Source: Balneolaceae bacterium
GTDB taxonomy: Bacteria; Bacteroidota; Rhodothermia; Balneolales; Balneolaceae
Reading direction: 5' to 3'
Length of the DNA stretch: 64,000 nt
NCBI GenBank assembly: GCA_009711805.1
Contig: VEMX01000034.1
Span: 1 to 64,000, forward strand
Shown here piece after piece: positions 17,872-46,198 of the stretch. Numbering within the stretch: the stretch's first letter is position 1; every line of letters starts with the position of its first letter. Made by a program: the position numbers and the translations under genes. The notes beneath the pieces were generated by a model. It saw nothing but the letters and a program-made list of their open reading frames with translations. It ran no database searches and was not told the origin of the DNA.

Positions 17872-18275
17872 GTAGATTAGAAAATGTGCAGAAAGGAGAA
17901 ATTCCCAACCCTGTAATTAGCTTATTATTTTTTAATGTTATTTCGCTGCATACCTTCCAGAGGAAGGCTTTTTATAATATAGCATATCTTTTATCAGTTT
18001 AGGTTAAATTTTTCTTAAGCAGAAAAACTTAATTAACATAAACCAATATAATTTAATTTCTATTTTACAATTAGTATAAAATCTATTTAACGCGTTTACC
18101 GGTTAGAAGTACCATGTTAGAGAACCTACGAGCGTATGCAGGTCCTCGTAGCGTTCGGCTTTCCAGCGAGAATCCCGTAACGCTCGCAGAACCTACCGAC
18201 GCTGCGAGGTTACTCCCATTCAATACTGTTTTAAGCTAATCTCCAACCGGTAAACGCGTTCTATTTAATTATATA
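17872..18275. other. intergenic region containing a MITE-like element
   Basis: AT-rich sequence flanks a compact GC-richer inverted-repeat element (18090-18259). The promoter of the giant gene should lie in the left 200 bp, but no clear TTG/TAnnTTTG pair is seen there on the minus strand. No small gene is apparent. Confidence 0.6.
18082..18267. mobile_element. 170-bp MITE-like element with 15-bp perfect inverted ends and 8-bp target duplication
   Basis: The left end acgcgtttaccggtt (18090-18104) is the exact reverse complement of the right end aaccggtaaacgcgt (18245-18259). The 8-bp direct repeat tctattta lies immediately outside both ends (18082-18089 and 18260-18267), as expected for a transposition target duplication. 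Inside are two further inverted repeats: ctacgag/ctcgtag (18126-18132 and 18145-18151) and ctcgcag/ctgcgag (18183-18189 and 18202-18208). It is too short for a transposase, so movement would need an enzyme supplied elsewhere. Confidence 0.85.
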
Positions 18276-33704: not shown

Positions 33705-33765
33705 CTTCCAAACATTCGGTTGACGTTACAGAAATCAATAATAACCATTTGGTGAATAATCCGGG

Positions 33766-35004
33766 CTAAGCATTCTTTTCTTCAATCCATTTGGCCATAT
33801 ACCGTGTACTGGCTGCTGTATGGTGAAGCAATATCTGTCCTACAAAGTTATTAGCCCGATGGTTGTCTAATGTTTCCACCAGTAAATAAATGCGTTTTAG
33901 CAACATCCCTGGTACTTCCTTTGCGGCAAATCGCCTGTTAATAATCTGAATTCCTTTTTCCTGGGCTTTTTCCCATTCTCTCTTATGGGTATACAACCAA
34001 ACTGCTTTCTCTGCAAAAAGCTCCGGCTTTTCTTCTACAGCTCCCGGCCATTCAAGATCTCCCTGCATAGATTCTGCCCCTATTGAAGTGGTAACACTTG
34101 GAGTACCACACTGCATGGCTTCTGTAAGTTTCCCCTTAATGCCTGCTCCAAACCGCAGAGGTGCTAATAGCAGCCGGGCATTACTAATTACATCTTTGGC
34201 ATCTTCTGCCCGCCCTTTAATCAGGAACCCTTGCTCAGCATTATGAAGTTGCTCCACTTTTTGAGATGAATAGGCCCCATAAATGTGCAATTCTGCTTCG
34301 GGCAACCGTGTTCGGATATGCGGCCATATGTCTTCTTTCAGATACAGTACCGCATTCCAGTTGGGTTTATGAAGAAAATTTCCAATGCTTACAAAATGTG
34401 CTCTTTGCTCGTACACCGGCAATTTATCCAGCATTTCCGGTTCCATGGATTGGAGCATAAAAGGTACATAGTGAAGCAATGATTCCCGGATCCCAAAACA
34501 TTCGTTCAGGATTTCCATTTCGGTTTCAGAGATAATCAGAGAGAGATCGCTTCGATAGATACTGGCAATTTCTCTTTTGGCGATATCTGAAAACAGATCT
34601 GTTGTATGGAATGCCCTGCCTTCTTTCCAGGCCTGTTCCCGGGCGTCTCGCAGGCAATGCAGGTCTTCAGTATCCAGTATTCTGAGAGCTGCAGGATGTT
34701 CTTCGGCTACTCTCCATCCAAACTGTTCCTCAGTCATAAAACGATCGAACAGAACTACGGATGGCTGTACTGATCTTATAAAATCATCGAAGGAGGAATC
34801 ATTGAGTTTTATTTTCTGCTCTTTCCCCCCTAACTGTTCAAGATCGGTCTCAAAACCACTTTTACCGGCTGCACTTGCAAAGGTGATTTCCCATCCCTCA
34901 GATTTAAACAATTGAATAAGCTGCATCATCCGGCTTCCCGCGGCAGATGAACCAGGTTCCGGCCATACTTTCCCAATGATAAGCAAGGAGCAGGGCCGGG
35001 TCAT
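33766..35004 (-). CDS. group 1 (GT4-type) glycosyltransferase
   Basis: A 412-residue GT-B protein. The C-terminal donor domain shows 'NARLLLAPLRFGAGIKGKLTEAMQCGTPSVTTSIGAESM', residues about 282-320, the usual nucleotide-sugar region of group 1 transferases. 'VSIGNFLHKPNWNAVLYL' starts the C-domain at about 215. Acceptor and sugar cannot be told. The start codon overlaps the O-methyltransferase stop by 4 nt (ATGA). Confidence 0.85.
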   Translation of the reverse strand: MTRPCSLLIIGKVWPEPGSSAAGSRMMQLIQLFKSEGWEITFASAAGKSGFETDLEQLGGKEQKIKLNDSSFDDFIRSVQPSVVLFDRFMTEEQFGWRVAEEHPAALRILDTEDLHCLRDAREQAWKEGRAFHTTDLFSDIAKREIASIYRSDLSLIISETEMEILNECFGIRESLLHYVPFMLQSMEPEMLDKLPVYEQRAHFVSIGNFLHKPNWNAVLYLKEDIWPHIRTRLPEAELHIYGAYSSQKVEQLHNAEQGFLIKGRAEDAKDVISNARLLLAPLRFGAGIKGKLTEAMQCGTPSVTTSIGAESMQGDLEWPGAVEEKPELFAEKAVWLYTHKREWEKAQEKGIQIINRRFAAKEVPGMLLKRIYLLVETLDNHRANNFVGQILLHHTAASTRYMAKWIEEKNA

Positions 35005-45104: not shown

Positions 45105-45812
45105 TTAATCCACAAGAAAATACCCATTCTGCAATAACCATTGCCTTGCTTCGCTTACATATTCGGTAGTTAAGCGGTGACCTTCATCAATCACTCTGAA
45201 TTCTGCAGAAAAACCTTCTTTTGCTAACAGTGATATTTCTTTTTTCTGAGGTTCGGCCAATACACTATCATCTTTTTTCCCGTGTAATGCAAGTACATTT
45301 ATATGAGAAGCCCGGGCTCTTTTACCTTCAAACACTTCTGTTTTAATCCTGCCTCCTACTACAATCAGATCCGAAATGTATTTCCATCTCGAAAAAGCAA
45401 AATATCCACCGAGGTATCCTCCCATGGAATATCCGAATATACAATACCGGTTTATCTCAATTGCTCCAGACACCGAATCCAGGGTATCTTGAATAAACTG
45501 AGAAGCCCTTTCCATGGACTTCACAAACTGATCCTGCCTTCCGTCGTACAGATACCACGCCCGTCCCCATTGGGCAACTGTGCGTTCACGGTTCTTATTA
45601 TAAATAGGATATGGAGCCTGAATAAACAAGTGATATGCCCTTACATCTAACATCTCCTCCATCTTCTTTTCGAAGTACACCAGGTTCTGGTTGTACCCAT
45701 GCAGATATACAATGAGTGGCTTTTTCCCTTTTGCACCGGTTTCAACAAGCTTATATGGTACTTCAATCTTAAATGAAGACTTCCCGGAAATAAGTACTTC
45801 TTTTGCTCCCAT
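45105..45812 (-). CDS. alpha/beta hydrolase (esterase/PHB depolymerase-like)
   Basis: A 235-residue hydrolase. The nucleophile elbow is 'GYSMGGYLGG' (GxSxG), the oxyanion region 'VYLHGYNQN' and the catalytic acid/histidine candidates are 'LALHGKKDDSV' and 'VIDEGHRLT'. No signal peptide. It resembles phospholipase/carboxylesterase-type cytoplasmic esterases. Substrate unknown. Confidence 0.82.
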   Translation of the reverse strand: MGAKEVLISGKSSFKIEVPYKLVETGAKGKKPLIVYLHGYNQNLVYFEKKMEEMLDVRAYHLFIQAPYPIYNKNRERTVAQWGRAWYLYDGRQDQFVKSMERASQFIQDTLDSVSGAIEINRYCIFGYSMGGYLGGYFAFSRWKYISDLIVVGGRIKTEVFEGKRARASHINVLALHGKKDDSVLAEPQKKEISLLAKEGFSAEFRVIDEGHRLTTEYVSEARQWLLQNGYFLVD

Positions 45813-45962: not shown

Positions 45963-46198
45963 TTAACCCGGATTATTCACCAAGAAATTTAATCGTACGC
46001 AAGGCGAAGTGGAAATGGGAACGGAAGGGTACTGTGGTACCCTGAGTACCCCAATTTTCACTTGAACGCAGCGTACGGGGAAATTTCGCTGCCTAATCCG
46101 TACCTCAAAATTGAGCTATTACATAAAGCAATTCAACGATAATATATTCAAGTATATAGATCGCCATTTTGCATCCATTCGTGAATAATTCGGGTTAA
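45963..46198. mobile_element. MITE-like element with 14-bp inverted ends and TTAA target duplication
   Basis: The left end cccggattattcac (45967-45980) pairs with gtgaataattcggg (46181-46194) with one mismatch. TTAA flanks both (45963-45966 and 46195-46198). Ends beginning CCC and a TTAA duplication are known for IS1380 and the related piggyBac group. Inside is a long imperfect palindrome whose arms gaaattt...gtacgc (45984-46000) and gcgtacg...aaatttc (46071-46087) centre on GGGTAC-tgtg-GTACCC (46027-46042). There is no transposase gene, so it would be non-autonomous. Confidence 0.8.

Follow-up and report, generated by a model that had tools for sequence, protein, structure and literature searches.

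A high-copy MITE with IS1380-like ends in Balneolales carries a conserved hairpin core that may aid its spread

The window analysed here is the whole stretch of 64,000 nucleotides at the start of contig VEMX01000034.1 of a Balneolaceae bacterium. It contains a 228-bp element at 45967-46194 with TTAA on each side (Table 1). The bioB start (46327) follows 132 bp downstream of the element, and a diverging gene (45105-45812) is 154 bp away from it. The ends, CCCGGATTATTCAC and CCCGAATTATTCAC, are identical at 13 of 14 positions, and with the TTAA included the inverted repeat comes to 21 nt at 90% identity. The interior is a large palindrome with hairpin arms of about 50 nt and an apical helix of 7 bp (46026-46032 paired with 46037-46043). 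As single-stranded DNA the element folds at -43.1 kcal/mol vs -22.5 (sd 3.4) for its shuffles, a z-score of -6.1. The initial annotation had described a TTAA-flanked element at 45963-46198 with ends matching at 13 of 14 positions and a large internal palindrome; its coordinates and both parts of this description are correct.

No open reading frame of at least 80 aa in the ORF list lies over the element. A scan of the element region for promoters and terminators detected no terminator and a sole promoter-like match, whose score is lower than the mean of the shuffles, and there is no consistent orientation of the genes next to its copies. Hence, the influence on bioB expression suggested at the outset is unsupported, though an effect on this gene is possible. 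In Rfam 15 the element region has no match near a gathering score, and the scan of the whole window yielded one tRNA only.

Table 1. Features of the element, in positions of the window
Feature	Positions	Strand	Basis
Target-site duplication TTAA, left copy	45963..45966	.	Sequence; identical flanking 4-mers in 50/56 genome copies
Left terminal inverted repeat CCCGGATTATTCAC	45967..45980	+	Motif also ends IS1380 elements of the order
Conserved hairpin core, structure on + strand	45984..46087	+	Covariation in alignment A1; GU vs AC cells
Apical helix AGGGTAC/GTACCCT, conserved GGA and TGAG on its flanks	46026..46043	+	Alignment, covariation
Variable AT-rich right part	46088..46180	+	Little conserved between genomes; holds most shared within-genome variants
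Right terminal inverted repeat CCCGAATTATTCAC	46181..46194	-	Sequence, inverted-repeat search
Target-site duplication TTAA, right copy	46195..46198	.	Sequence; 4-mers of genome copies

Genomic copies and their target sites

The source genome is a 4.08-Mb draft of 99 contigs, the smallest of 2800 bp. With the element as query it gives at least 40 matches, nearly all of them 98-99% identical. A two-ended pattern search recovers 56 full-length copies against none for the reversed pattern used as a control, setting the copy number at no fewer than 56 full-length elements. The genome search for other copies with these ends that was proposed at first is thereby answered, and because 56 copies of the same size have exact ends in one genome, the element lies far beyond chance. 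The same four bases flank both sides of 50 of these 56 copies: 38 are TTAA and 12 are non-palindromic (six CTAA and three TTAG, plus TTAC, GTAA and ATAA). As the non-palindromic duplications exclude chance symmetry, the copies are insertion products at YTAR sites among which TTAA is preferred. The TTAA target of the initial annotation thus holds as the preferred site and not as a strict one. A complete chromosome from another family (G043) has 79 full copies, many with non-palindromic duplications (CTAA 16, TTAG 6). Empty sites were also sought via restored reading frames, and the copy junctions fell outside credible genes.

In ten shorter copies (44-105 bp) the ends are retained and the hairpin is missing, with the duplications intact in nearly all of them. 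The missing part starts at the hairpin's 5' base, AATT repeats occur at most of the junctions, and these junctions look like products of deletion in place. As such copies retain duplications, it may also be that the hairpin is not strictly required.

Further repeats were noted. A lone end, CCCGGATTATTCAC, lies at 33749-33769 of the window on the - strand, flanked by TTAG and with no partner end nearby; it is a relic, or one end of an element since lost. A second dispersed repeat of about 172 bp has a copy at 18089-18260 of the window, occurs at many genomic places with 95-99% identity, and is nested once in a 298-bp element with IS1380-like ends (L008, 625-922). A TTAA-flanked element of 716 bp with the same ends (L287, 1864-2579) has a strongly foldable interior (-205 kcal/mol) and yields neither a clear gene nor a match in Rfam. 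No recognisable transposase was found in either the 716-bp or the 298-bp element. Four contigs of the source assembly (L044, L082, L286 and L291) terminate inside the MITE-like element at its position 123, and therefore the repeat itself breaks the assembly.

Link to IS1380 transposases

The transposase family PF13701 is found over cut-off in 19 of 129 genomes of Balneolales, and several of these genes are flanked, on one side or both, by ends of the element's motif, which at proteins over the NCBIfam IS1380 cut-off have the form YTAR+CCCGGATTATTCAT or YTAR+CCTGCATTTCTCAC. Several instances were inspected: L110, 1710 bp long, has CTAG-CCTGCATTTCTCAC at both sides and CTAG duplications; L111 and L112 have ends CCCGGATTATTCAT at IS1380-type genes; the ends at L113 and L118 are variants of CCTGAATAATTCAT. 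The transposases of L110, L111 and L112 pass the NCBIfam IS1380 cut-off (NF033539). Partner-type ends in the order are flanked by CTAG, TTAA and TTAG, and 13 of 14 end bases are common to the element and to transposase-bearing IS1380 elements of several Balneolales genera. The IS1380-family insertion sequences of the order (NF033539/PF13701; L110, L111, L112) thus have the inverted-repeat motif and the 4-bp YTAR duplication of our element. They differ from it in being about 1.7 kb long, in possessing a transposase gene, in lacking the hairpin core in the instances inspected, and in that none was found in the source genome.

In that draft genome PF13701 has no match over cut-off. Two weak matches (L061, L062) proved to be DUF4372+DDE_Tnp_1 transposases whose ends do not match, and a search of the small contigs for a hidden partner transposase found only ends of the element at contig edges. 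As this draft has no contig under 2800 bp, and four contigs were withheld from the search, it is possible that a partner lies unassembled. A partner in the same genome is usual for a MITE but not strictly required, as partners can be lost. The initial expectation of an IS1380-type transposase with matching ends is accordingly borne out in other Balneolales genomes and not in the source genome.

The element has IS1380-like inverted ends, a 4-bp duplication of the partner's type, no transposase gene in its 228 bp and a copy number of 56; the partner transposase is found in relatives only. With these copies and with matching IS1380 ends in relatives, the early reading of an IS1380-type MITE is upheld, and we classify the element, from its sequence features, as a high-copy non-autonomous member of this type. 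Its movement by an IS1380 transposase is inferred from the matching ends of IS1380 elements in relatives only. It could instead be moved by another transposase family with YTAR targets, its likeness to IS1380 ends being coincidental: no IS1380 transposase was found in the source genome, and the six other IS1380-type genes on the G043 chromosome have no matching ends. We consider this quite improbable, given that ends identical at 13 of 14 bases, with the same class of duplication, flank IS1380 transposases in several Balneolales genera.

Conservation of the hairpin core and proposed selection on spread

The element or parts of it occur in 13 of 59 relatives (the source genome counted), those elsewhere being about 70-80% identical and from more than one family. 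Its length is near constant, at 225-230 bp inside the duplication, with an insert of 26-28 bp in some. Conservation between genomes covers the ends and the first 123 nt (mean column identity 78%) but not the right part. In an alignment of 20 sequences from 13 genomes (A1), 24 of 40 core pairs have changes on both sides with pairing kept, and 94.5% of paired cells can pair, vs 78.7% in shuffles and 34-45% with the partners slid. These pairing figures are somewhat overstated, since the structure comes from these same sequences, which are related to one another, but the slid controls still fall far below. GU cells in the core outnumber AC cells by 62 to 9, with 13 pair columns having GU only and three AC only (sign test 0.02); it is therefore the + strand form that has been preserved. 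The consensus fold is likewise deeper on the + strand (-66 kcal/mol) than on the - strand (-37). The functional form would thus be the single-stranded + strand, as either RNA or ssDNA.

The same conservation might arise if the hairpin had no function of its own and had merely descended from a few recent, horizontally spread sources; mobile elements are able to cross species, and the copies within the source genome are 98-99% identical. Between genomes, however, the core falls to 70-80% identity with pairing kept at the 24 doubly changed pairs, and divergence is far greater in the right part than in the core. Covariation thus largely refutes descent without function, which we regard as very improbable.

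A second line of evidence comes from comparing private and shared variants among the copies within one genome, in the source genome and in G043. Private variants arose mostly after insertion, and shared ones are carried by lineages that multiplied. Private variants per site in the source genome amount to 0.31 in the stem, 0.31 in the core loops and 0.11 in the right part, and in G043 to 0.78, 0.52 and 0.57, respectively, counts that may be inflated by copies at contig edges and by sequencing errors in hairpins. Private pair changes towards AC and GU number 10:6 in the source genome and 10:10 in G043, with no preference. Shared variants per site in the source genome are 0 in the ends, 0.07 in the stems and 0.18 in the right part; in G043 they are about 0.5 in ends and stems vs 1.74 in the right part. 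Nonetheless, one pair-breaking shared variant has spread in the source genome. As private variants do not spare the stems while shared ones avoid stems and ends, selection seems to act on spread rather than on what each copy does for the host: the decay of single copies appears neutral, with the fold being filtered when elements multiply.

These data also bear on an RNA role for the hairpin, by analogy with ERIC or Correia repeats, in which read-through transcripts would fold and then be processed or stabilised, and copies would be kept for tuning their neighbours. The strand-specific pairing with G-U accords with this, as does the gene context in the source genome: the left neighbour reads towards the element in 37 of 54 cases, and convergent arrangements (21) exceed divergent ones (7). 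This skew to the 3' ends of genes is also as would be expected if insertions near promoters were lost. The 79 copies of G043, in contrast, are distributed over the four arrangements as 22/21/19/17, with no orientation bias; stems are not exempt from private mutations in either genome; the element has no terminator and no convincing promoter; and in Rfam the core finds no match over cut-off. From the variant pattern together with the gene context we therefore prefer a role in spreading to one in host gene expression, which is unlikely.

The hairpin module in other elements and comparison with known systems

A covariance model (R1), for which only Balneolales sequences were used, was run against 394 genomes of the phylum. 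Its matches outside the order are to three genomes, all of the genus g74, and, at a weak level, to a fourth. A second, mixed model (R2) finds 15, 3 and 42 copies in the three g74 genomes, with scores that are not independent as it was trained on three g74 copies, and one in a Burkholderiales MAG. By itself R1 recovers 21 of 24 such loci at E from 1e-6 to 0.03, among them those of the Burkholderiales MAG and of a Comamonas plasmid. The hairpin repeats of g74, which is of the same phylum, of the Comamonas plasmid and of the Burkholderiales MAG have the core of the element, CAAGGCG ... GGA-SGTAC..GTACS-TGAG ... CAACGCNGC, in the same order and spacing. Unlike the element, they have other outer arms (e.g. 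GGGCACCTCT...AGAGGTGCCC) and lack IS1380-like ends. At loci L402-L421 (in genomes G187, G259 and G400) the outer arms are complementary within each copy and differ between copies (e.g. GAACGATGTTTTGATC/GATCAGAACATCGTTC at L410), and some copies resemble terminator hairpins whose loop holds the module.

A repeat of E. coli has a similar hairpin tip, with 53 bp at 87% identity to the g74 module, but is without the CAAGGCG/CAACGC base and is matched weakly, by the mixed model only. This repeat (L398, L401) is about 131 bp long, intergenic, present at a median of five places per genome, and unannotated in these records. Stray hits of the collection pattern (Lacticaseibacillus, Microvirga, Acidobacteriaceae, Calditrichia; L210 site) were not confirmed as the module by the models.

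The hairpin is kept across Balneolales and is seen again, next to different ends, in unrelated bacteria, which points to a part of its own in the spread of such elements. The explanation that best joins the evidence, and which we consider probable, is an IS1380-type MITE whose cis-acting hairpin aids multiplication and whose inserted copies appear neutral. Under this explanation the + strand would most likely fold when single-stranded, as ssDNA during replication or as RNA; the fold would raise the chance of a copy being mobilised or tolerated; and the copy, once inserted, would be neutral to the host and then decay. More tentatively, and with a confidence short of even, the core could be a portable, chassis-independent module: a strand-specific fold carried by unrelated MITEs because it raises their spread, via a shared host factor or step. 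Its carriers would be IS1380-type elements in Balneolales, elements that end differently in a further genus of the phylum and in betaproteobacteria, and perhaps elements of gammaproteobacteria.

Our search of the literature for MITEs or repeats in Balneolales found nothing relevant. What seems new is a covarying hairpin core, seemingly selected for spread, that is common to elements with other ends. Bacterial MITEs are usually viewed as little more than their ends, with junk in the interior. In this case it is the interior that is better preserved, with order-wide covariation, apparent selection on spread and recurrence with other ends. This makes testable a long-open question, namely what purpose large hairpins serve in high-copy bacterial repeats and how such repeats multiply.

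Among known systems, the enterobacterial repetitive intergenic consensus (ERIC) resembles the element by eye. Homology was suspected on this ground and finds no support, as both covariance models fail on four ERIC copies of E. coli, with no match by R1 or R2 up to E = 10. ERIC has TA at its ends and short inverted repeats of 7 bp (PMC2229807). Both are intergenic MITEs of comparable length that reach high copy numbers and contain a long hairpin, and short motifs, seen by eye, are common to the two (AAGGCG, GGAGC-TAC...GTA-GTGA and AACGCAG). The element differs from ERIC in its 4-bp TTAA/YTAR duplication, in place of TA as the duplicated target.
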